NCBI GenBank assembly: GCA_017616015.1
Contig: JAFZYY010000021.1
Coordinates: 1 to 32,957, forward strand
Origin: Alphaproteobacteria bacterium
GTDB taxonomy: Bacteria > Pseudomonadota > Alphaproteobacteria > CAAGCB01 > CAG-977
Direction: 5' to 3'
Length of the DNA: 32,957 bases
Below, in pieces: positions 6,233 to 30,475 of this stretch (position 1 is the first letter of the stretch; each line of letters begins with the position of its first letter). Both the position numbers and the translations under genes were made by a program. Under the pieces are notes generated by a model, which searched no databases, was not told the origin of the DNA, and was given only the letters and a program-made list of their open reading frames with translations.

Positions 6233-7522
6233 ATGAGAAAAAAATTTCTTGAAAAGAAGCTTGCAAAGCTTCAGAGCAAGCTGGCCGAGATCAGAAGCAA
6301 GGTACAGACCAGCACCGACGCTGCAGAAGTCAGAGAGTTGACAGCACGCGCGGAAGAGATCAACGACGAAATCAGCGACATTAACGAAGAGCTTGCCGCG
6401 ATCGCAGAGGAAGAGCAGCAGAGGGCAGCAGAGCAGCAGACCGAGACACGCGACGCCGTGCCCGCAAGTGCTACGCTTATCAACCCTATACAGAACAGCG
6501 GCGCAAGCTTCACAGTTGGCGAGCAGAGAAGCAACGACGACCCGTTCGCAACCATGGAATACAGAATGGCGTTCAAGAAGTTCGTACAGACCGGAACCCC
6601 GATCCCGTCACAGTATGAGCAGAGACAGGACGCCGCAAACTCACAGAGTTTAGGCGCAACGATTCCTACAACGCTTTTAAACGAGCTTGTAAACGAAATC
6701 CGCAAAGTTTACGGCAATCTTTACGCAAAGACCCGCAAGCTTAACATACAGGGCGGCGTAAAGATCCCTGTTGGTAAATTACAGGCCACCTTTAAGTGGA
6801 TAAGCGAAAAGACCGTAAGCCCGAGACAGGACGGCGGCACAACAGAAACCGTTGAATTTTCGTATAACGTTGGCGAGATCAGAGTGGCGCAGACCCTTTT
6901 GGCTTCAATCGTATCGCTTGACCTTTTCGAACGCGAAGTCGTAACGATCATGATGAAAGCCTTTTTACAGGCAATGGACACCGGAATCGTTAAAGGAACC
7001 GGAAACGGGCAGCTTTTGGGAATCCTTAACGACAGCCGCATACCCGCTGGCAATGTTATCAGCATGACCGCCGCAGACATGAGCAATTGGACGAAGTGGC
7101 GCACAAAGTTCTTTGCGAAGCTGCCTTTAGGCTATCGTTCCGGTTCGTTCATTTTCCCGCTTTCGACCGTTGAGACCTACCTTGAAACAATGGCAGACAG
7201 CAACAATAACCCCATTTTCAGACAGGCAACCGGGCTGGAAGTAAACGACGGCGACGCAGTTGCACCCAACGGCAGATTTTTTGGCCGTGCGATCGACCTT
7301 GTTGAAACGGACATTTTGCCCGATTTTGACACCGCGAACGCTAACGACGTAATCGGCATTTTCTGGCAGCCGGAAGAGTACGCGATCAATTCCAACATGC
7401 AGTTCGGAATGAAGCGCTACTTTGACGAAGAGACTAACGAGTGGGTAAACAAGGCGCTTGTTATCGTTGACGGCAAGCTGGTAAATCCCGAGGGCGTATT
7501 CCTTATCAAGAAATCATCTTGA
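6233..7522 (+). CDS. Major capsid protein, HK97 fold
   Basis: The 429-residue protein starts after AAGGAG. Residues 1-75 are a charged coiled coil (KKLAKLQSKLAEIRSKV onward) typical of the scaffold-like delta domain, followed by a low-complexity linker where the protease would cut, probably near residue 100-120. The mature part begins around SLGATIPTTLLNEL and contains the features of the HK97 fold family, including GTGNGQLLGILN and the late FWQPEEYAINSNMQFGMKRYFDE segment. It directly follows the protease. Confidence 0.95.
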   Translation: MRKKFLEKKLAKLQSKLAEIRSKVQTSTDAAEVRELTARAEEINDEISDINEELAAIAEEEQQRAAEQQTETRDAVPASATLINPIQNSGASFTVGEQRSNDDPFATMEYRMAFKKFVQTGTPIPSQYEQRQDAANSQSLGATIPTTLLNELVNEIRKVYGNLYAKTRKLNIQGGVKIPVGKLQATFKWISEKTVSPRQDGGTTETVEFSYNVGEIRVAQTLLASIVSLDLFEREVVTIMMKAFLQAMDTGIVKGTGNGQLLGILNDSRIPAGNVISMTAADMSNWTKWRTKFFAKLPLGYRSGSFIFPLSTVETYLETMADSNNNPIFRQATGLEVNDGDAVAPNGRFFGRAIDLVETDILPDFDTANANDVIGIFWQPEEYAINSNMQFGMKRYFDEETNEWVNKALVIVDGKLVNPEGVFLIKKSS

Positions 7523-14545: not shown

Positions 14546-15619
14546 ATGGCTTTAATGTTTTACTTGCTGGACAAAGACATGGAAATAAAGAGGATAATAG
14601 AAACGTATAAAAGTGCGATATGGACGGAACGCTACTACGAGCGCGGGGACTTTGAATTGTATATCCCGGCCACCGTTGAAATTATAGCAGATTTAAATTT
14701 TGACAGCAGCGGAAGCACGCAGTACATTGTCCGGGCGGACGATACCACAAAATGCGCCATGATTGAATCCGTAAAGATCAGCACCGACGCAGACAACGGC
14801 AATTTTATCACCGTTTCGGGGCATACGCTGGACGCGCTGGCGTTTCGGCGCGTGGTAACATCACAGACGACCTACACAGGATCCGCGGCGAAGATAATAG
14901 AACGGCTAATCACGAAATCAATTGTTTCGCCGGACGCCGTAAACAGAGCAATCGCAAATTTTAGCTTCAAAAACAGCATTGAAGACTCCGACCGGGCATT
15001 AACCGCGCAATATTGTGGCGAAAATGTTGGCGAAGCCGTCGAAGCGATCAGCAAGACAATCCACACCGGGTACCGTGTAAATTTTGACATTGACAACAAA
15101 ACAATGGAATTTGAAATTTACGAGGGCGCCGACCGTTCATTGTACCAGCAAGACAACCCGCCTGTTATCTTTTCGAACGACTTCAACAACCTTTTGACGA
15201 GTAATTACACGGTAAGCGTTGAAAATTGGCGAAATAACGCCCTTGTTATCGGTGAGGGACAGGGCACAAACAGGGTTCGAGTTGAGTTTGGCGAAGATAA
15301 TGCCGGGATAGAACGCCGCGAAGTGTACGTGAACGAACAGGAATCCAGCACGAACGGCGGCGAGATCACAAAAGGGGCATACATGCAAGTGCTTTATGAC
15401 AGGGGCTACCAAGCATGCGCCGAAAACAGGCCGCTACGTGAGACGGAAGCAGACGTGGCACCAAATTACGGCTTTAAATTGGGCGTGGACTATTTTTTGG
15501 GCGATATTGTCAGCGTCGAGAACGAGTACGGCGTCAAGATCACGCCGCGAGTTGTGGAGACGATCGAAGCGCAAGACGACAACGGGTACAGTATAATCCC
15601 GACTTTCGCAATAGATTGA
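14546..15619 (+). CDS. ReqiPepy6 Gp37-like tail protein (Tal/baseplate hub)
   Basis: The 357-residue protein shows the family pattern: MFYLLDKDMEIKRIIETYKS, then ERYYERGDFELYIPA, and GNFITVSGHTLDALAFRRV, with a C-terminal DYFLGDIVSVENEYG segment. It is the tail-tip hub that carries fibres or a lytic domain; no separate peptidase domain is visible here. It is the last structural gene on this side. The fibre genes that would normally follow are instead upstream of the terminase (89-2020). The -35 box of the next promoter overlaps its stop codon. Confidence 0.85.
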   Translation: MALMFYLLDKDMEIKRIIETYKSAIWTERYYERGDFELYIPATVEIIADLNFDSSGSTQYIVRADDTTKCAMIESVKISTDADNGNFITVSGHTLDALAFRRVVTSQTTYTGSAAKIIERLITKSIVSPDAVNRAIANFSFKNSIEDSDRALTAQYCGENVGEAVEAISKTIHTGYRVNFDIDNKTMEFEIYEGADRSLYQQDNPPVIFSNDFNNLLTSNYTVSVENWRNNALVIGEGQGTNRVRVEFGEDNAGIERREVYVNEQESSTNGGEITKGAYMQVLYDRGYQACAENRPLRETEADVAPNYGFKLGVDYFLGDIVSVENEYGVKITPRVVETIEAQDDNGYSIIPTFAID

Positions 15620-15644
15620 CAAGCCGCCCGGTTGTTGATACAAT
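15616..15644 (+). promoter_or_regulatory. Sigma-A-type promoter for a small RNA
   Basis: TTGACA (15616-15621), a 17-base spacer and TACAAT (15639-15644) form a near-consensus promoter. Transcription would begin near 15651. Only 75 bases lie between this point and a strong terminator, with no plausible gene inside. Confidence 0.8.
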
Positions 15645-15650
15645 GGCATA

Positions 15651-15725
15651 AAGGTTAGCAAATATCCCGTTTGCTTTCCTTATCTTTCGTGGGGGCATGA
15701 CCAGCGCGTGGTTGTGCCCTTTTTT
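15651..15725 (+). ncRNA. Predicted 75-nt phage small RNA
   Basis: The interval between a near-consensus promoter and a terminator folds into two hairpins. Hairpin 1 has AAGG (15651-15654) and AGCAAA (15657-15662) pairing with TTTGCT (15670-15675) and CCTT (15678-15681), with a symmetric TT/TT internal loop and a TATCCCG apical loop. The linker ATCTTTCGTGG (15682-15692) is unpaired. Hairpin 2 is the terminator. The linker bases TCTTTCGTG are the exact complement of CACGAAAGA, the first part of a leader motif found before seven genes. I do not recognise a known RNA family. Transcription and pairing are predictions. Confidence 0.65.
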
Positions 15726-15726
15726 T
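15693..15726 (+). terminator. Terminator of the small RNA and late operon
   Basis: GGGCATGACCA (15693-15703) pairs with TGGTTGTGCCC (15709-15719) over 11 bp with two G-T wobbles and a 5-nt loop, followed by seven T residues. It would end both the small RNA and read-through late transcripts. Confidence 0.88.
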
Positions 15727-15763
15727 GCTGGAAAAATTTTTTTAAAAATTTTGCAATTAGTGC

Positions 15764-15792
15764 TTGACTTTATTAGCCCAATGGGCTATAAT
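15764..15792 (+). promoter_or_regulatory. Strong promoter with palindromic operator
   Basis: TTGACT (15764-15769), a 17-base spacer and a consensus TATAAT (15787-15792) make a strong promoter. The palindrome TAGCCCA-A-TGGGCTA (15774-15788) fills the spacer and touches the -10 box, so a dimeric repressor there would block polymerase. The Xre-type protein encoded at the end of the operon is a candidate regulator. The start of the transcript can form a small hairpin (15800-15805 with 15813-15818). Confidence 0.85.
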
Positions 15793-15830
15793 GTATTTAC
15801 AAGGTAAGGGAAACCTTGAAAAACAAAAAC

Positions 15831-15842
15831 ACGAAAGAGAGG
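15831..15842 (+). promoter_or_regulatory. Leader motif copy 1 (ribosome site)
   Basis: ACGAAAGAGAGG, 8 bases before ATG 15851. With the preceding C it matches the small RNA linker over 9 bases (CACGAAAGA); its GAGG part is the Shine-Dalgarno core. Confidence 0.75.
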
Positions 15843-15850
15843 ACAGCAAG

Positions 15851-16171
15851 ATGACAAACGCGCAGATTATTTTCAACAATTCACTTTCACTTATGGAGCA
15901 AGGCATTTTAAAAGGTTCCGGCATAATGGCAACCGTTGAAGACGAAAACGGCGAGAAAAAGCAGATCGAATTGCCGGAGACAATACACACCTACGCCGCA
16001 TGGAAGTCGATCGGCTACCAAGTGAAAAAGGGACAGAAAGCAAAAGCAGCCTTTACAATTTGGAAGTACACCGAGAGCAAGAAGCAGAACGACGAAGAAG
16101 AAGCCGCGGGGCGCATGTTTATGAAGCTTTCACACTTCTTTACGGCAGACCAAGTTGAAAAGATCGCATAA
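15851..16171 (+). CDS. ArdC-N-like small protein
   Basis: The start is ATG 15851, since an upstream in-frame TTG lies in the promoter. The 106-residue protein contains ETIHTYAAWKSIGYQVKKGQKA, then FTIWKYTE and FMKLSHFFTADQVEKI, a layout that resembles the N-terminal ssDNA-binding domain of ArdC-type antirestriction proteins (KxLGYQVKKGxKA, followed by a strand and a Phe-rich end). There is no metallopeptidase domain. It is the first gene of a promoter-driven accessory cassette beside attP. A role in antirestriction or DNA binding is an inference from this resemblance. Confidence 0.5.
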   Translation: MTNAQIIFNNSLSLMEQGILKGSGIMATVEDENGEKKQIELPETIHTYAAWKSIGYQVKKGQKAKAAFTIWKYTESKKQNDEEEAAGRMFMKLSHFFTADQVEKIA

Positions 16172-16186
16172 CAAAACACCAGCCGA

Positions 16187-16208
16187 CGGGCGGCGGCCAA
16201 ACCGCCCG
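16187..16208 (+). promoter_or_regulatory. Intercistronic GC hairpin 1
   Basis: CGGGCGG (16187-16193) pairs with CCGCCCG (16202-16208), loop of 8. No T run follows. It lies between two genes of the accessory cassette, just before the next ribosome site, so it may protect the upstream message or limit downstream translation. Confidence 0.6.
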
Positions 16209-16223
16209 AGAAAGTGGGATAAA

Positions 16224-16472
16224 ATGACAAAGCAGATAAAAACAGAATGGTGTGAAAACTTTATAAAGGCATATTTTAGAAAGCATGACTGCAAGGGCGT
16301 TTATACTAAACTTTTATTTGACGAAGCGGCAAAACGTGGGCTTTACGTTCCGGAGACATATGGCAGCCCGTTTTCACAGGCACTCGAGAACGTGTGCGAA
16401 GTCTACACGATCAACGACAAAGAAACAGGCGATTTTATTTACGCCGCATTTAGATTAAAGGCGGGGGCATGA
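16224..16472 (+). CDS. Hypothetical accessory cassette protein, 82 aa
   Basis: ATG 16224 follows AAAGTGGGAT; longer in-frame starts would overlap the hairpin. The 82-residue basic protein has two helices (TEWCENFIKAYFRKHDC, then YTKLLFDEAAKRGL) followed by a mixed region ending in DKETGDFIYAAFRLKAGA. No known domain is evident to me. It belongs to the operon starting at 15764. Confidence 0.6.
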   Translation: MTKQIKTEWCENFIKAYFRKHDCKGVYTKLLFDEAAKRGLYVPETYGSPFSQALENVCEVYTINDKETGDFIYAAFRLKAGA

Positions 16473-16481
16473 AACCCCGCC
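16460..16481 (+). promoter_or_regulatory. Intercistronic GC hairpin 2
   Basis: GGCGGGG (16460-16466) pairs with CCCCGCC (16475-16481); the 8-nt loop contains the stop codon of the upstream gene. No T run follows, so it is not a normal terminator. Confidence 0.6.
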
Positions 16482-16490
16482 GAACAAGAT

Positions 16491-16502
16491 CAGAAAGAGA
16501 GG
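16491..16502 (+). promoter_or_regulatory. Leader motif copy 2 (ribosome site)
   Basis: CAGAAAGAGAGG, one base different from the common form, 8 bases before ATG 16511. Confidence 0.65.
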
Positions 16503-16510
16503 GCAAAGAA

Positions 16511-16690
16511 ATGACATTTACCGAGATTTGGAACGAAGCATACAACATTTTTACAGACGGCGAGAGAACCGAGGCCGGACGTTATAACGACATGCAGCGC
16601 TTTTTGCTGGACAAGGTAAAGGCGGGCGAGCTTTCAATGGCAGACAAGTGCCACATGGTTGCGGACATTATGGAAACGGCGGGGATTTAA
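16511..16690 (+). CDS. Hypothetical accessory cassette protein, 59 aa
   Basis: The start ATG 16511 is fixed by the leader motif 8 bases upstream. The 59-residue acidic helical protein reads MTFTEIWNEAYNIFTDG onward and ends KCHMVADIMETAGI. I recognise no domain. It lies in the middle of the accessory operon between two hairpins. Confidence 0.6.
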   Translation: MTFTEIWNEAYNIFTDGERTEAGRYNDMQRFLLDKVKAGELSMADKCHMVADIMETAGI

Positions 16691-16700
16691 AACCCAGCCG
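16677..16700 (+). promoter_or_regulatory. Intercistronic hairpin 3
   Basis: CGGC and GGG (16677-16684, one mismatch at 16681) pair with CCC and GCCG (16693-16700); the loop holds the upstream stop codon. Same placement as hairpins 1 and 2. Confidence 0.45.
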
Positions 16701-16707
16701 AAAGATC

Positions 16708-16719
16708 ACGAAAGAGAGG
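16708..16719 (+). promoter_or_regulatory. Leader motif copy 3 (ribosome site)
   Basis: ACGAAAGAGAGG with preceding C, 8 bases before ATG 16728; a 9-base match to the small RNA linker. Confidence 0.75.
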
Positions 16720-16727
16720 GCGAAAAA

Positions 16728-16919
16728 ATGAACGAATACAAAAAGAGCTTTAAAAAGTTAATTGAAGAGCTGGCAAACCTTGACGAGCTGACAGACGACA
16801 CCGTGGGGGCATGGTTCGGCCGCGTCGATATGAGTTACCAGCATGACGGGATAAGCTACAACGAACAGGCGCTGTTGTTAAAGCTTGCGAACAAGATCAC
16901 AAGGGGGGCGAGAGTATGA
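16728..16919 (+). CDS. Hypothetical accessory cassette protein, 63 aa
   Basis: The start ATG 16728 is set by the leader motif. The 63-residue protein starts MNEYKKSFKKLIEELANL and has a second helix with YNEQALLLKLANKITRG. It overlaps the following Xre gene by 4 bases (ATGA), so the two are translationally coupled and may act together. No family recognised. Confidence 0.6.
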   Translation: MNEYKKSFKKLIEELANLDELTDDTVGAWFGRVDMSYQHDGISYNEQALLLKLANKITRGARV

Positions 16920-17113
16920 AAGACTTTAAAACGTTTCGGGAGTCAACAGGCATGACACAAGCCGAATTTGTCCGGCATTTTGGGATCCCGTTGCGGACGG
17001 AGACGCATTGGGAAACCGGGGACAGACAGCCACCGGAATACGTGGTAAACATGATTAAAAAAATATTGCTTTACGAAAAGGGATACACGCCCGAAGAGAT
17101 CGGGCAAGAATAG
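16916..17113 (+). CDS. Xre-type helix-turn-helix regulator
   Basis: This 65-residue protein is a single HTH: FKTFRESTGMTQAEFVRHFG, then LRTETHWETGDRQPPEYV and a terminal helix. Such small Xre proteins often repress their own operon, and the palindrome at 15774-15788 is a likely site. It is coupled to the gene before it, a layout like a toxin-antitoxin pair, though the partner has no recognisable toxin fold. A terminator follows. Confidence 0.75.
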   Translation: MKDFKTFRESTGMTQAEFVRHFGIPLRTETHWETGDRQPPEYVVNMIKKILLYEKGYTPEEIGQE

Positions 17114-17171: not shown

Positions 17172-17217
17172 AGAAATTTGCGAAGCCTTGCAAATAAAGG
17201 CTTGCGAGACTCACACA

Positions 17218-17264
17218 CTTGACTTTTAATCAAGTTGTCTCGGGTTCGAGTCCCGAGTGGCTCA
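17218..17264 (+). other. attP core: 3' half of tRNA-Lys(UUU)
   Basis: The sequence carries the anticodon stem-loop (CTTGA 17218-17222, loop with TTT anticodon at 17225-17227, TCAAG 17230-17234), a 5-base variable loop, the T arm (TCGGG/CCCGA around TTCGAGT) and the 3' acceptor strand GTGGCTC with discriminator A (17264). The 5' half (D arm and GAGCCAC acceptor strand) is absent, so this is not a working tRNA. Phages that integrate into tRNA genes carry exactly such a 3' part to rebuild the gene. It lies next to the integrase gene. Confidence 0.9.
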
Positions 17265-17480: not shown

Positions 17481-18578
17481 TTAAAGATCAGCAGCGAAGA
17501 CGCGGTCGAGTTTTTCGGCGGCGTTTTCTTTCATTTCGTTTAAATGCGCATAAACGCGCATTAACATTGTCGTGTCCGCGTGTCCCAGCAATTGCGCGGC
17601 CTTTTTTATTGAAACTTCCGAATAAAAAAGCATTGTAGCATAATTGTGGCGGAAAATGTGCGGCGTCAGCGTTTCCGCGTCGGGAGTTTCGGCAGCAAGC
17701 GCCGATTTTATCCTGTCCCACATGCGCCGGAACGAGCTTTTAGTAAGCGGCGATCCGTCGGACATGGTAAAGAGCAAGCCGCTTTTGTCTTTCGTGTACG
17801 CTTTGAGGACGGGCAAAAACGCCGCCGGAATTGGTACCGACCTTATACTGTATATATTTTTCGGCCGTTCGATTTTAGGGGCGTTTTCGTCGAATACAAG
17901 GGCTTGCCGTACGTGTAAAAGCTTTTCTTTGAAATCAATGCGGGAGCAATCAAGCGCCAGGCACTCTTCACGCCGTAAGCCGCAATAATACAGGATAAGC
18001 ACGAACACCCGCTCTCGTTCGTCAAGATCAGCAGAGAAAAGGGCAAGCTTTTCCGGTTCCGTCAAGGGGCGCTTTTCGTTCTTTTCCCTTTTCGGCAAGA
18101 TCAGCTTTTTTATATTGACGCCGCGCCGGATATCCATTTCGAGATCGACGGCCGCCGCATAAAGCTGGCGGAGCGTTAGCTTGATTTTGTTGCACGTTTC
18201 CGGCTTTTCAAAGTTGTAATTTATCACGCCTTGCAGATCGGCTTGCGATATTTCGGAGAAGTACAGGTCACCAAGATCGGGTATTAAATGCTTTTCGATA
18301 ACGTTGCTATACATTGCCCGGGTATTTATTGCCGCATGTTGCTTTTCAGTTCGCAGCCATTGCCGGGCGAACGCGCCGAACGCCATATCATCAGACGGCG
18401 CCGCGTTTTCTGAAAGATACTGCTGCCGGGCGGCGAAAATCTTTTTTTCAAGTTCCGCTTTTGTTTTCGCATAGATCGACCGCCGCACCAGCTTGCCGTC
18501 GCGATCACGCCCAAGGGTTATCTTTTTTTCTATACGGGGCTTTTTTTCTTTTTGTGTCTTCTTTTCTTTCGCTGGCAT
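17481..18578 (-). CDS. int: Tyrosine recombinase integrase
   Basis: The start ATG at 18578 has GGAGG 7 bases before it; the TTG at 18584 is too close to that site. The 365-residue protein has a basic N terminus with an arm-binding beta domain, a SAM-like core-binding domain (FGAFARQWLRTEKQH) and a C-terminal catalytic domain. Catalytic residues: Arg 202 (GLRREE), a Lys near 240, His 307 and Arg 310 (HIFRHNYAT), His 333 (LLGHAD) and Tyr 343 (RVYAHL). It integrates the phage at a host tRNA-Lys gene. It is the last gene of the leftward lysogeny operon, 2 bases after the repressor. Confidence 0.95.
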   Translation of the reverse strand: MPAKEKKTQKEKKPRIEKKITLGRDRDGKLVRRSIYAKTKAELEKKIFAARQQYLSENAAPSDDMAFGAFARQWLRTEKQHAAINTRAMYSNVIEKHLIPDLGDLYFSEISQADLQGVINYNFEKPETCNKIKLTLRQLYAAAVDLEMDIRRGVNIKKLILPKREKNEKRPLTEPEKLALFSADLDERERVFVLILYYCGLRREECLALDCSRIDFKEKLLHVRQALVFDENAPKIERPKNIYSIRSVPIPAAFLPVLKAYTKDKSGLLFTMSDGSPLTKSSFRRMWDRIKSALAAETPDAETLTPHIFRHNYATMLFYSEVSIKKAAQLLGHADTTMLMRVYAHLNEMKENAAEKLDRVFAADL

Positions 18579-18580
18579 AA

Positions 18581-18919
18581 TCAATCCTCCGGGAGATACT
18601 TCAACATTTTGGCATATTCTAACAAGCGCTGCAGCTGGCTTTCGCTGAAATCTTTTGAAATAGTTTCAATTTCGGCTATCGGTTCCGGGAGCGGTTCGAC
18701 CGGAACCGCCGCAAGAATTTCGCTGGGCTTTACATGGAGCGCGTCAGCGAAAAGTTTAATTTTTGCTTGCGGTATATCAGCGGATCCCGTTTCAATTTTT
18801 GCAATGCTTGACCGGGACGTGTACCCGCAAAGCGCGGCGAGATCATCTTGTGACATATCGAGGGCAAGCCGTAAACGCTTTATATTTGCGCCAAATTGTA
18901 ATAGTTCGTTGTTTTTCAT
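18581..18919 (-). CDS. Xre-family regulator with shared C-terminal tail
   Basis: The 112-residue protein has an N-terminal HTH (IKRLRLALDMSQDDLAALCG, SRSSIAKIETGSADI) and a C-terminal helix EIETISKDFSESQLQRLLEY. The same tail ends the repressor encoded just upstream, so the two may oligomerise with each other. It overlaps that gene by 4 bases and is followed by the integrase. No peptidase domain is present. It may be a second immunity repressor or a regulator of integrase. Confidence 0.8.
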   Translation of the reverse strand: MKNNELLQFGANIKRLRLALDMSQDDLAALCGYTSRSSIAKIETGSADIPQAKIKLFADALHVKPSEILAAVPVEPLPEPIAEIETISKDFSESQLQRLLEYAKMLKYLPED

Positions 18920-19530
18920 AATTTGCCCTCGTTGTATTGTTTTAACATTTTCGCATATTCTACAAGCCTATTTAGCTGGCTTTCGTTCATATCTTTGGCG
19001 AGCGTTTCAATTTCAATTATAGATCCCGTTTTATTATCATCAAAAGACCAACCCATAAGCGCCTGCGGCGAGGTTTTGAGAATTTCGGCAAGTGGTTCTA
19101 TAATATCAGCCGGTATTTTTTCTATTTCGTTGCTTTCGTAACGATAATATGTGGCGCGGTTAATATTTAGCTTTTCGGCTATATAATCAACAGATATGCC
19201 CAGCGCTTGCCGCCTTGATTTTATTCTTTCGTTTATTGTTTGAGCGGAAACAATTAAAGCGGGTTCGGGACGTTCCTTGCGTTCTTTTTCGACATCATAT
19301 CCCATTAACCAAGCCTCGGAAACGTTCAAAGCACGCGCCAAAATATAAAGCTTGTTTTGCTTTGGCGTGGCTTTTCCCGCGATATATTGTGAAATATCCG
19401 AACGGTTCATTTTAATTTTGAATTGTTCAAGGTATGGCATGCAGCGTTCCAAAATATCGGCTTGTTTAATATTTTCAGTTTCAAGGATATAGCGAAGCCG
19501 TTCCGCCGTTGTTGTGGTTTTTTCTGCCAT
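18916..19530 (-). CDS. Double-HTH phage repressor
   Basis: I use ATG 19530, preceded by AAAGGGGGTG; the ATG at 19551 lies upstream of that site. The 204-residue protein appears to hold two HTH domains: residues about 8-75 (MNRSDISQYIAGKATPKQNK, ALNVSEAWLMGYD) and about 100-165 (IKSRRQALGISVDYIAEKL, RATYYRYESNEIE). A tail EIETLAKDMNESQLNRLVEY follows. It lacks an S24 peptidase domain, so RecA-driven self-cleavage is unlikely and induction must work otherwise. It is first in the leftward operon and probably the main immunity repressor. Confidence 0.8.
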   Translation of the reverse strand: MAEKTTTTAERLRYILETENIKQADILERCMPYLEQFKIKMNRSDISQYIAGKATPKQNKLYILARALNVSEAWLMGYDVEKERKERPEPALIVSAQTINERIKSRRQALGISVDYIAEKLNINRATYYRYESNEIEKIPADIIEPLAEILKTSPQALMGWSFDDNKTGSIIEIETLAKDMNESQLNRLVEYAKMLKQYNEGKL

Positions 19531-19556
19531 ATAAACACCCCCTTTATGCAAAAGTG

Positions 19557-20135: not shown

Positions 20136-20315
20136 ATGGCACGCTTTAAAGTTTGCGAGTATTGCGGCGCCGCGCTGGATTTTGGCGAAACTTGCGATTG
20201 TAAGCGCGAAGCCGAATCGCAAGCGGAGAAGTGGCGAAGCATGACAAAACAGGAAACAACGGGGCAAATTAGACTGCTGCCGGAGATCATCACGAAAGAG
20301 AGGGACAAGACATGA
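20136..20315 (+). CDS. Small zinc-ribbon-like protein, 59 aa
   Basis: The start ATG 20136 has GAGAGGGGGC before it. The product begins MARFKVCEYCGAALDFGETC and has Cys at 7, 10, 20 and 22, enough for one zinc site (CxxC and CxC), followed by a charged helical tail ending KERDKT. It overlaps the next gene by 4 bases (ATGA). The role is unknown. Confidence 0.7.
   Translation: MARFKVCEYCGAALDFGETCDCKREAESQAEKWRSMTKQETTGQIRLLPEIITKERDKT
20292..20303 (+). promoter_or_regulatory. Leader motif copy 4 (ribosome site)
   Basis: ACGAAAGAGAGG with preceding C, 8 bases before ATG 20312. Here it lies inside the coding sequence of the previous gene. Confidence 0.7.
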
Positions 20316-20479
20316 ACAAAGAAGCAGAACAGGCAATGAACAATTTACACGTATCGGAAATGCTGGCATTGAATACCGAGGGTTTTATCCTTATTTGCGG
20401 AAACGGACAGGCGTGCGCGATCGTCGAGGAAAAGGACGCACCGCGGGCAGAAATGGAGCGCGTTAAATATGGCTATTGA
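20312..20479 (+). CDS. Hypothetical early protein, 55 aa
   Basis: Reads MNKEAEQAMNNLHVSEMLAL, then a beta segment with GFILICGNGQACAIVEEKDA and a basic end. The leader motif lies 8 bases before the start. The end overlaps the exonuclease start by 11 bases. I see no domain, but small proteins at this place are common before YqaJ genes. Confidence 0.6.
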   Translation: MNKEAEQAMNNLHVSEMLALNTEGFILICGNGQACAIVEEKDAPRAEMERVKYGY

Positions 20480-21154: not shown

Positions 21155-21484
21155 ATGGAAAAGCGAAAGCCGGGCGAGCTGACAACGTTGGAGACACGGG
21201 CAGCAGCTAACGAGACAGTAAACAAGGGTTTGCGTTATCGGCAAATACTTGACGTTTTAGAGAATGACGACGCCGACGGAATGACGGCCAAAGAAATCGC
21301 CGTCGTTATGTATAACCGGGGCGACATACCGACCAGCGAACGCAATTTCACGGCGCCGCGCTTGACGGAGTTAGGCGAACAGGGGATCGTGGAGCCGATC
21401 GGCAAGAAGTTCTGCACATACACCGGGCGCAAAGTTACCGTTTGGGGCTTGCGTTCGCCGTTTGAAACGAAAGAGAGGGCATAA
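21155..21484 (+). CDS. Winged-helix-like early protein
   Basis: I use ATG 21155 after AAAAGGGGGC; TTG 21134 is upstream of that site. The 109-residue protein has a winged-helix-type order: RQILDVLENDDADGMTAKEI, then NFTAPRLTELGEQGIVEPIG and a strand KVTVWGLRS. It lies between exonuclease and DUF1351 in the recombination operon. The DNA target is unknown. Confidence 0.65.
   Translation: MEKRKPGELTTLETRAAANETVNKGLRYRQILDVLENDDADGMTAKEIAVVMYNRGDIPTSERNFTAPRLTELGEQGIVEPIGKKFCTYTGRKVTVWGLRSPFETKERA
21467..21478 (+). promoter_or_regulatory. Leader motif copy 5 (ribosome site)
   Basis: ACGAAAGAGAGG, 8 bases before ATG 21487, inside the end of the previous gene. Confidence 0.7.
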
Positions 21485-21486
21485 AA

Positions 21487-22413
21487 ATGGAATTAGCGAT
21501 CATTACGACACCCGACGGCGGGTTGTCAATAAAGGACTTTGAAAGCATTAAAAAAGAGCTTGCGGAGACGCTGGCACATTATAAGACGCTTGTGGTTACG
21601 GCGGACGAGATCAAAGCCGCCAAGGAATATCGGGCGCAGCTTAACAAGACCAGCGACGCGCTAAAGGAAAACTTTAGAAACAAAAAGAAAGAGCTTTTAC
21701 AACAGCTTGACACGCTGGACGGACAGACAAGCGAGCTTGTCGGGATTGTATGGGAGTGCGCGGACGCGATCGACAAGCAAATAAAAGCTTTCGAGAACGA
21801 GGAAAAGGAAAAGAAGCTGGCGCAATGCAAGGCCATATTTGTGGAAGAGTTTGCCGGGCTTGAATGGGTAAAGTTTGAAGCGATCAGCAACGAACGCTGG
21901 ACAAATAAAACCTTTACGCTTGCCAAAGTTTCCGACGAATTGAAAGCAAAGCGCACCGAGATTGAACAGAACCTTGACACGCTGGAAAGATTGGACGCGT
22001 TCGCGTTTGAAGCCGTGGAAGAATACAAGCGCACGTTGGACATTAACAAAGCGATCACAGAGGGGCAACGGCTGGCGGACATACAGCGCCGGAAAGAAGA
22101 AGCGAAGAGACAGGCCGAAGAAGAAGCGAAACGCGCCGCGGAGATCGAAGCCCAAAAAGCCGCCCAGCGCGAAGCGGAATCGGGGCAAATTTCAAGCGAA
22201 AATAATCAGACGATGAAAAACACACCCGAAACGGCAACGGGGCAAAATGATCCGTTTTCGGACGAAATAAAGCACGTTTTAATTATGACCGTTGACGGCA
22301 AGGGGTTCCGGGCGGAGATTAGCGACGGAGCGAAAGCAGACCTTAACAACATTATCCGGGAATACATCAAGCGCAACGGCTTGCAAATGGAGAGAATAGG
22401 GGGCGAAGCATAA
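21487..22413 (+). CDS. DUF1351-like recombination-associated coiled-coil protein
   Basis: The 308-residue protein is mostly coiled coil: helices with EIKAAKEYRAQLNKTSDALK, AFENEEKEKKLAQCKAIFVE and a Lys/Glu/Ala-rich stretch (residues 200-235). The pattern matches DUF1351 proteins, which occur next to RecT/YqaJ genes in phages of Bacillota. A role in recombination or replication complexes is likely from context; the biochemical function is not known to me. Stop and next start overlap by 1 base. Confidence 0.78.
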   Translation: MELAIITTPDGGLSIKDFESIKKELAETLAHYKTLVVTADEIKAAKEYRAQLNKTSDALKENFRNKKKELLQQLDTLDGQTSELVGIVWECADAIDKQIKAFENEEKEKKLAQCKAIFVEEFAGLEWVKFEAISNERWTNKTFTLAKVSDELKAKRTEIEQNLDTLERLDAFAFEAVEEYKRTLDINKAITEGQRLADIQRRKEEAKRQAEEEAKRAAEIEAQKAAQREAESGQISSENNQTMKNTPETATGQNDPFSDEIKHVLIMTVDGKGFRAEISDGAKADLNNIIREYIKRNGLQMERIGGEA

Positions 22414-25713: not shown

Positions 25714-25891
25714 AACGATCGCGCAAGCGACAATTGACGAAGTAACGGCGGACATTTGCGAACATTTCTGCAAATATCCGGACACATGGGACGAAGACTC
25801 CGAGGGCGTCGAGCTTTACGAAAGCGAAATTTGCAAGAATTGCCCGCTTAACCGCTTAACAGCGGAAGACAACGAAAGAGAGGAAAACTAA
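25697..25891 (+). CDS. Cys-rich hypothetical protein, 64 aa
   Basis: The 64-residue acidic protein holds four Cys (ICEHFCKY and EICKNCPL), consistent with a zinc site. The start overlaps the previous gene, the stop shares a base with the methyltransferase-like start. It resembles other small Cys-containing early phage proteins; function unknown. Confidence 0.6.
   Translation: MIKFVRTIAQATIDEVTADICEHFCKYPDTWDEDSEGVELYESEICKNCPLNRLTAEDNEREEN
25872..25883 (+). promoter_or_regulatory. Leader motif copy 6 (ribosome site)
   Basis: ACGAAAGAGAGG, 7 bases before ATG 25891. Confidence 0.7.
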
Positions 25892-26592
25892 TGGTTGCGC
25901 ATTGTCTTTTTGAGCAATCCGGAACATTTAAAAACGAATTTATCAAGTTGGGAGTTCCGGCGCTTGATTATGATATTTTGAACGACTATGGGCAGACAGA
26001 CCGACAAACCGACCTTTTCGTGGAGATCAACACAGCATACGCGGGGGGGGTGAGCCTATTTGATGAAATAAGCAAAGAAGACCTTATTTTGGCGTTTTTT
26101 CCGTGTACCCGGTTCGAAGACCAGGCCTTGCTACTTTTCCGGGGCGACCTGTATCAGATGAAAAACTACACCGACGCGCAAAAGCTGGAGTATGATTTAC
26201 AGATACACAAAGAGCTGGCGACCAACTACGACACAATCACAAAGCTGGCGCTTGTGGCGATCAAAAGGGGCTTGCGGCTTGTGATTGAAAACCCATATAC
26301 AACACAGCACTATTTGACGCGCTATTGGAGCATAAAGCCGGGAATAATTGACACGGACAGAACGCAGAACGGGGACTACTTCAAGAAACCGACACAATAT
26401 TTTTTTATCGGCTTCAAACCGAAAAATAACCTTGTATTTGAAGCGCTGGACTATAAAGAAACGCTTGTTATAGACAAGATCACGCGTTCAAAAGACAAAA
26501 CAAGGGCGGCAATGCGAAGTGAGATCGCGCCGCAATATGCAAGCCGTTTTATACGGCAATACTTGATAGACGAAAGAGAGGAAAGAACATGA
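25891..26592 (+). CDS. Cytosine-methyltransferase-like protein
   Basis: The 233-residue protein has a Rossmann-like arrangement with FEQSGTFKNEFIKLGVPALD and YDILND at the start, ILAFFPCTRFEDQ (Pro-Cys like C5 methyltransferase motif IV), LRLVIENPY (motif VI ENx) and FKKPTQYFFIGFKP later, then ITRSKDKTRAAM and a terminal helix. This matches the phage family annotated as DNA cytosine methyltransferase-like, with a shorter target domain than true 5mC enzymes. It could modify phage DNA against restriction. A run of eight G lies at 26043-26050 within the gene. Confidence 0.65.
   Translation: MVAHCLFEQSGTFKNEFIKLGVPALDYDILNDYGQTDRQTDLFVEINTAYAGGVSLFDEISKEDLILAFFPCTRFEDQALLLFRGDLYQMKNYTDAQKLEYDLQIHKELATNYDTITKLALVAIKRGLRLVIENPYTTQHYLTRYWSIKPGIIDTDRTQNGDYFKKPTQYFFIGFKPKNNLVFEALDYKETLVIDKITRSKDKTRAAMRSEIAPQYASRFIRQYLIDEREERT
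26570..26581 (+). promoter_or_regulatory. Leader motif copy 7 (ribosome site)
   Basis: ACGAAAGAGAGG, 7 bases before ATG 26589, inside the end of the previous gene (DEREER). Confidence 0.65.
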
Positions 26593-26816
26593 AAAACTTT
26601 GACCTTATAGACCGCGACGAAGCACTAAAAGTGACAAGCGGTTCTATTGTTTGCAATAATCACATAAAGGCGCTGCCGACGATCATCACCGCGCAGCAAA
26701 TACGGGCTTTATTCAACCGTTGCGCAGCCTTGTCTGCTTTCGCAATGTGCCCGTTTTGCAATATTAGGCACATTTGCAAAAAATTTCGCGTAGAGATAGA
26801 GGGGGACGACGAATGA
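26589..26816 (+). CDS. Cys-rich hypothetical protein, 75 aa
   Basis: The 75-residue protein starts MKNFDLIDRDEALKVTSG, a start shared with many small phage proteins (LIDRDEAL), and has FAMCPFCNIRHICKKF near its end, a CxxC...C cluster. Overlaps both neighbours by 4 bases. Function unknown; metal binding likely. Confidence 0.6.
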   Translation: MKNFDLIDRDEALKVTSGSIVCNNHIKALPTIITAQQIRALFNRCAALSAFAMCPFCNIRHICKKFRVEIEGDDE

Positions 26817-28400: not shown

Positions 28401-28793
28401 ATGACCGACGAAACGCGGGACATAATAACCGCAACAGTAAATGAAACCGTTGAACGGCTGAAAGCGGCGGGCATGTTGCGGCAAATTGACAGAAACGCCC
28501 GGGAAAAAACGGAAGAGCTACTCCGGCAATATCCGCTGTTTAAAATGATAAAGGGCAAGCGCCGGACGACCGAGCTTGTCGCGGCGATCGAGAACGCGCT
28601 GGCAAAGATCAGCGAAGACCAATACGCCGAAATCATACGGCGGCATTATTTCGACCGTCAAGGGCTGGAGAAGATCGCCCTTGATTTGAACATATCGACG
28701 AAGACGGCGAGAAAACACAAACAGCGGCTTGTCGGGACGCTTTCGACCTTGCTTTTTTCCGACGAAATGATACAGGAAATATTTTTCAGATAA
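28401..28793 (+). CDS. Sigma-region-4/ArpU-like late regulator
   Basis: The 130-residue protein has a helical N-terminal part (TVERLKAAGMLRQIDRNARE) and a C-terminal HTH with IIRRHYFDRQGLEKIALDLN and STKTARKHKQRLVGTLSTLL, similar to ArpU/RinA-type and sigma-70 region 4 proteins. Such proteins activate late transcription in phages of Gram-positive bacteria. It is the last early gene, followed by a terminator and a non-coding region that should contain its target promoter. Confidence 0.8.
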   Translation: MTDETRDIITATVNETVERLKAAGMLRQIDRNAREKTEELLRQYPLFKMIKGKRRTTELVAAIENALAKISEDQYAEIIRRHYFDRQGLEKIALDLNISTKTARKHKQRLVGTLSTLLFSDEMIQEIFFR

Positions 28794-29477: not shown

Positions 29478-29708
29478 GTGAAAAATTGGAAAAAGTGGCT
29501 TAAAGCGGCAATAATACGCGGCGTTCGCACTTTTGCCGAATCCGCGCTGGCCTATATCGGAACCGGGGCAATAGTTCTCGGGGACGTTAATTGGTTAGGC
29601 GTTCTTTCCGCCGGGGCGTTCGGTTTTATTATTGCCATATTGATCGCATTAACAGGGCTGCCGGAAGTTGACGACGACGAAGACACAGAGGAAAAGGCGA
29701 ACACATGA
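29478..29708 (+). CDS. r1t-type holin
   Basis: The start is GTG 29478 after AAAAGGGGGT; a start at 29427 lies inside the previous gene. The 76-residue protein matches the r1t holin family: AAIIRGVRTFAESALAYIGT, DVNWLGVLSAGAFGFIIAIL and GLPEV, with two membrane segments and an acidic tail. It forms the membrane lesion that lets endolysin reach the wall. Overlaps the endolysin gene by 4 bases. Confidence 0.9.
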   Translation: MKNWKKWLKAAIIRGVRTFAESALAYIGTGAIVLGDVNWLGVLSAGAFGFIIAILIALTGLPEVDDDEDTEEKANT

Positions 29709-30475
29709 CAGACGAAATAAAAGCATTTTGCGATTATCTGAAAAAGCAAGTCGCAGACTACAGCCTGTATTTATGGGGCGGACAGGGCGAACCCGTCGAG
29801 GAATCCGGGCTGGTAAATATGCGATATATTTGCCGGAAAGAACAGAACCAAAACCGCGCCGAACAAGTCGCGGCGAAGATCGTAGACTGCTACTACCATA
29901 GCTACGACATGAGCGAAGCAAAATTTTTTGATTGCAGCGGTTTGGGCACGGCCTACTTCATGGGAAAAGGATACATAAAAGACGATTTGACCGCCGCGGG
30001 GTTATATAACATTTGCCCGACGCACCCGGACTTGTCGCAAGTCAGACCCGGCGACATGGTTTTTAAAAACAAGACGACCAGCGGCTGGGGGCATGTTGGT
30101 TACGTATCGGGAACCAGCGCCACAGGCGAAACCCTTGTAACGGAAGCCCGCGGGCGTTCGTATGGAGTCGTAACGCGGACGCTTGCGAATGGGGAGTGGC
30201 AAGCAACAGGCCGCCCGGGATTTTGGAGCGACGAAACACCCGCCCCGGAATTTGTCCGGAATCTGTACTACCGAAAAGGCAATTTAATGCGCGGCGACGA
30301 CGTGCGCGCGGTTCAAGTCAGATTAACAGAGTTGAACATAGAAACGGGCGAGATTGACGGCGTTTTCGGATTGAAGACAAAAGAAGCGGTAATAGACTAC
30401 CAAATAATAGCGGGCTTGACCGTTGACGGCATAGTCGGCCGCAATACATGGAACGCACTATTTGGCGAGGATTGA
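29705..30475 (+). CDS. Endolysin: NlpC/P60-type peptidase with PG-binding domain
   Basis: The 256-residue protein has an NlpC/P60-like cysteine peptidase: Cys 77 (FFDCSGLG), His 130 (WGHVGYV) and the RPGDMVF strand. Residues about 190-256 form a peptidoglycan-binding domain (RGDDVRAVQVRLTELNIETG, DGVFGLKTKEAVIDYQ, VDGIVGRNTWNALFG). No signal peptide is seen, so it relies on the holin for export. Lies directly after the holin. Confidence 0.92.
   Translation: MTDEIKAFCDYLKKQVADYSLYLWGGQGEPVEESGLVNMRYICRKEQNQNRAEQVAAKIVDCYYHSYDMSEAKFFDCSGLGTAYFMGKGYIKDDLTAAGLYNICPTHPDLSQVRPGDMVFKNKTTSGWGHVGYVSGTSATGETLVTEARGRSYGVVTRTLANGEWQATGRPGFWSDETPAPEFVRNLYYRKGNLMRGDDVRAVQVRLTELNIETGEIDGVFGLKTKEAVIDYQIIAGLTVDGIVGRNTWNALFGED

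Follow-up and report, generated by a model that had tools for sequence, protein, structure and literature searches.

A temperate siphophage carries a putative short transcription unit, a gene-free stretch of about 76 nt flanked by a near-consensus promoter and an intrinsic terminator. The predicted RNA contains an unpaired linker complementary to a leader shared by several genes of the same phage. Antisense silencing of this leader group is the best mechanism that can be named, with a probability of a little under four in ten, and a real RNA whose match to the leader is coincidental is about equally likely. The initial annotation of this DNA is confirmed in its observations, as promoter, terminator, leader family and complementarity are all present, and its interpretation is partly supported.

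The window analyzed here is one whole contig of 32,957 bases from a 2.09-Mb assembly and represents a temperate siphophage. It encodes a terminase (2331), a portal protein (4042), a tape measure protein (11329), a distal tail protein (13770) and a Gp37-like tail protein (14546-15619), the latter being the last gene ahead of the RNA unit. An integrase gene (17481-18584, minus strand) adjoins a tRNA-Lys-like sequence, and repressor-like genes are located at 18581-19551 on the minus strand. Furthermore, a Q/ArpU-like regulator is encoded at 28401-28793, and endolysin and small terminase genes are found at the right end of the contig. On one side of the RNA unit is the Gp37-like gene; on the other, adjoining the integration site, is a small accessory cassette (15851-17113) with genes for an ArdC-N-like protein, unknown proteins and a helix-turn-helix protein. 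The tRNA-Lys-like sequence (17206-17264) corresponds to a tRNA 3′ part (Rfam tRNA, 29.1 bits), ARAGORN detected no complete tRNA gene there, and a 40-bp segment aligns at 93% with contig C4, the site of an intact tRNA-Lys; it is probably the phage attachment site, the contig not being inserted there. The middle part of the endolysin-like gene at 29705-30475 is minor-tail-like, and this gene is located ahead of the terminase genes and not behind the tail genes.

The promoter (15616-15644, plus strand) is of the sigma-70 type (TTGACA-N17-TACAAT) and shows 11 of 12 consensus bases, a spacing of 17 nt and the TG of an extended -10 region; it overlaps the stop codon of the preceding tail gene. The intrinsic terminator on the same strand (15691-15726) consists of a 13-bp stem (15691-15721) and a T-run up to position 15726. 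With a first base deduced from the -10 region to lie at about 15651, the promoter-terminator pair and the fold define a predicted non-coding RNA of about 76 nt on the plus strand (15651-15727). Nowhere else in the window, on either strand, is a second promoter of at least 9/12 followed by a comparable terminator within 140 nt, and among 60 dinucleotide shuffles of the window none contained a pair with at least 10/12, while one was found at 9/12. The description of a near-consensus promoter and a strong terminator around some 75 nt without a gene was thereby corroborated.

From 15651 to about 15726, the predicted RNA adopts a fold of -32 kcal/mol (z -4.06) with two hairpins joined by a linker. 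Hairpin 1 (AAGG-UU-AGCAAAU...GUUUGCU-UU-CCUU; 15651-15681, plus strand) appears in both the minimum free energy and the centroid structure. The linker AUCUUUCGUG (15682-15691, plus strand) is unpaired except for its last base, as had been proposed, and is the complement of CACGAAAGA; a pattern search located TCTTTCGTG exactly at 15683-15691, in agreement with the complementarity noted before. Since the promoter-terminator pair is unexpected by chance and the fold is stable, a stand-alone short RNA, and with it a separate transcription unit with a predicted transcript, is well supported at the level of sequence. No start codon usable with a ribosome-binding site was found inside 15651-15727. 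Two coding alternatives were rejected: for an encoded peptide, the sole ATG lies in the terminator stem and is improperly spaced from a ribosome-binding site, and for a gene on the minus strand with the complement serving as its leader, a start codon at a suitable distance is absent.

The 12-mer ACGAAAGAGAGG occurs in exactly six copies in the window (15831, 16708, 20292, 21467, 25872 and 26570), all located 7-8 nt ahead of start codons (15851, 16728, 20312, 21487, 25891 and 26589), and it is absent from the other approximately 2.06 Mb of the assembly. All copies are on the plus strand. In the longer form CACGAAAGAGAGG the leader precedes the ArdC-N-like gene 15851-16171 (Pfam ArdcN; leader at 15830-15842), gene 16728-16919 (16707-16719) and gene 20312-20479 (20291-20303). 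As ACGAAAGAGAGG it precedes the DUF1351 gene 21487-22413, which lies beside the YqaJ and RecT recombination genes (21467-21478), the DNA methyltransferase-like gene 25891-26592 (25872-25883) and gene 26589-26816 (26570-26581). The one-base variant described before 16511 is real (CAGAAAGAGAGG, 16492-16503, plus strand, before gene 16511-16690). A leader motif had been claimed for six genes, which holds for the 12-mer at all six, whereas only three of them contain the full 9-mer CACGAAAGA. For the shorter motif ACGAAAGA, 14 copies were counted in the window, where 2.6 were expected. At 20312, 21487, 25891 and 26589 the leader copy shares sequence with the 3′ end of the reading frame before it. 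The plus-strand genes fall into two leader classes, AAGGGGGC-type for most and ACGAAAGAGAGG for seven, one of these being the variant. The designation of the latter as early genes is not established, as 15851, 16511 and 16728 belong to the accessory cassette, which separates the tail genes from the integration site; the leader genes are accessory and recombination genes and not clearly one early set.

In the proposed mechanism, the unit would yield a terminated non-coding RNA whose unpaired linker UCUUUCGUG, continued through CCUU past a bulged A, would pair with the shared leader (C)ACGAAAGAGAGG and cover the GAGG core of the ribosome-binding site. This extended pairing with a single bulge is also returned by duplex prediction. 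Translation of the neighboring gene 15851 would be lowered first, followed by that of up to six other phage genes, and the RNA would be expressed in the lysogen. Against such a role counts that the leader genes are presumably already under repressor control.

Duplex strength was calculated as partition-function dimer energies, and selectivity as the mean preference over GGGGG-type leaders. Predicted binding to the seven leaders ranges from -6.2 to -16.3 kcal/mol, the strongest value belonging to the leader of the neighbor 15851, and the mean preference over the GGGGG-type leaders of the phage amounts to -5.1 kcal/mol. This preference was reached by 13 of 700 dinucleotide shuffles, by one of 700 sense-strand windows, by 5 of 150 random phage windows from either strand, and by none of 150 random linkers or 82 real phage terminator regions. 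The absolute affinity is ordinary: 445 of 700 shuffles bind equally well or better, because they lack the strong internal fold of the RNA. The comparison with shuffled controls proposed in the initial annotation is favorable for selectivity and unfavorable for affinity. In addition, genes outside the leader group, such as 28401 and 9313, score as high as its members in duplex prediction. The selectivity is modest, nominal evidence at the 1-3% level (0-3% depending on the null), uncorrected and for a relation picked after the fact. The 9-mer CACGAAAGA or its complement occurs at more than 20 chromosomal sites; none of the 20 that were read showed a convincing ribosome-binding leader, so that the pairing would be phage-specific.

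The low level of this selectivity before correction is one argument for the reading to which we give the same weight as to antisense silencing, namely that a real short RNA has other targets or no function, that its match to the leader is coincidental, and that the leader is an extended ribosome-binding site of several phages. Unrelated phages carry two to four leaders of the GATCACGAAAGAGAGGGC family per contig, and the terminase of one such phage is only about 26% identical. In 17 other leader-bearing phage records, the 8-mer complement TCTTTCGT was never found on the leader strand (0/17) but only opposite it, including a 34-kb record with ten sense copies of ACGAAAGA. As these phages have the leader without a complementary sense-strand sequence, the leader needs no such RNA. 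This shows that the leader is not shaped by the RNA in general, and it does not thereby refute an action of the RNA here. Coincidence is opposed by the position of the complement, which coincides exactly with the unpaired linker, and by the real terminator regions, none of which is equally selective.

No homologue of the RNA emerged from the searches. No Rfam family reaches its gathering score at this position, the best weak match being TarA with 16.3 bits where 80 are needed. Blastn found no homologue in phage records; in 191 host relatives its matches were short and confined to the AT-rich sequence that follows the RNA. IMG/VR contained no exact match to a 17-nt pattern, and a covariance model found no homologue in 61 genomes or in related phage loci totaling about 2.5 Mb. 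The candidate appears to be an orphan with no conservation behind it. A search with the portal protein yielded 80 related loci with up to 89% identity, the closest of which are fragments ending short of the RNA position. The 12-mer leader was found in none of 30 longer portal relatives, and among 182 relatives only this genome has the leader at a spacing of 6-8 nt to an ATG. Of the longer portal loci that were read in the correct orientation, most show a fibre-like gene directly 3′ of the Gp37 gene; here, the RNA unit comes next instead.

The same position bears on a second alternative, according to which there is no separate RNA gene: the hairpin would terminate the late (tail) operon, and what looks like a promoter would be fortuitous or weak. 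The hairpin stands directly behind the last tail gene, the expected place for such an element, and in a related phage (G201/L240) this gene is likewise followed closely by a terminator. We nevertheless regard this explanation as unlikely, since the promoter with its TG is among the best of the scanned region and its pairing with a terminator exceeds chance expectation.

Downstream of the RNA, a further predicted promoter (TTGACT-N17-TATAAT; 15764-15792, plus strand) contains the palindrome TAGCCCAATGGGCTA, which reaches into the -10 region; from this promoter, the 15851 cassette would be expressed without dependence on the RNA. Relatives of the 15851 gene in other phages (L005, L017) are likewise preceded by palindromes between -35 and -10, which differ in sequence. 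This variation from phage to phage suggests dedicated repressors. A single exact match to the 15764 operator lies in an unrelated contig and is due to chance.

Another phage lineage with the same leaders shows a strong promoter, a near-invariant short hairpin-terminator RNA, a second terminator and then leader genes (L054 at 9260, L084 at 1035, L089 on the minus strand at 6606, L145 and L356). The complement of the leader was not found in the hairpin-terminator RNA of these five loci. In lambda, pR′-tR′ yields a short 6S RNA. A corresponding arrangement, in which a phage antiterminator passes the early terminator and transcription reads into the 15851-17113 cassette, would fit the Q/ArpU-like regulator of this phage and the conserved promoter followed by two hairpin terminators in that lineage, but it is very improbable, as a separate predicted promoter with an operator-like palindrome precedes the cassette, and the late genes are found on the upstream side instead of further downstream.

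Several known systems are comparable to the proposed antisense silencing. According to a review (PMC12197685), c4 RNA of P1/P7 blocks the ribosome-binding site of ant, and sar of P22 blocks ant translation. The candidate is similar to c4 as a small phage RNA for which a ribosome-binding-site block via unpaired parts of a structured RNA is proposed, and by this analogy a c4-like, immunity-type role is imaginable. Unlike c4, which targets the ant mRNA and matures from a longer precursor transcript, the candidate would match seven leaders over 11 kb with one linker, and it has no Rfam match. Like sar, it is a short RNA that would reduce translation initiation at a phage gene; sar itself comes from the region of its own target, whereas most candidate targets here are remote and share a common repeated leader. 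Lambda OOP RNA (77 nt) has a similar size and likewise its own promoter and terminator, but it is cis-antisense to cII, while no recognized gene lies opposite the RNA here. RoxS/RsaE and FsrA of Firmicutes and GcvB of enterics also use a single-stranded stretch for pairing at or near the Shine-Dalgarno sequence of many mRNAs. In contrast to the candidate, these RNAs are host-encoded and conserved and act on host metabolic or transport genes, and the pairing stretch of RoxS and FsrA is C-rich, as compared with UCUUUCGUG here. The proposed multi-target design resembles that of RoxS/FsrA (PMC10433868) or GcvB (PMC3879156).

An RNA made in the lysogen that silences a set of phage genes via one leader could also hit incoming phages, an RNA-based superinfection immunity that is conceivable because the same leader recurs in unrelated phages, and to which we give a small chance. 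Should the pairing prove real, a repeated ribosome-binding leader would place a scattered set of phage genes under the control of a single small RNA. The candidate would then join the phage antisense RNAs directed against ribosome-binding sites with an unusual multi-target design, and such a regulon is absent among the examples in the available part of the review, which are mostly single-target or host-directed RNAs (PMC12197685). Even if the pairing is not real, the analysis shows that one phage uses two distinct classes of leader and that unrelated phages have a leader family in common.
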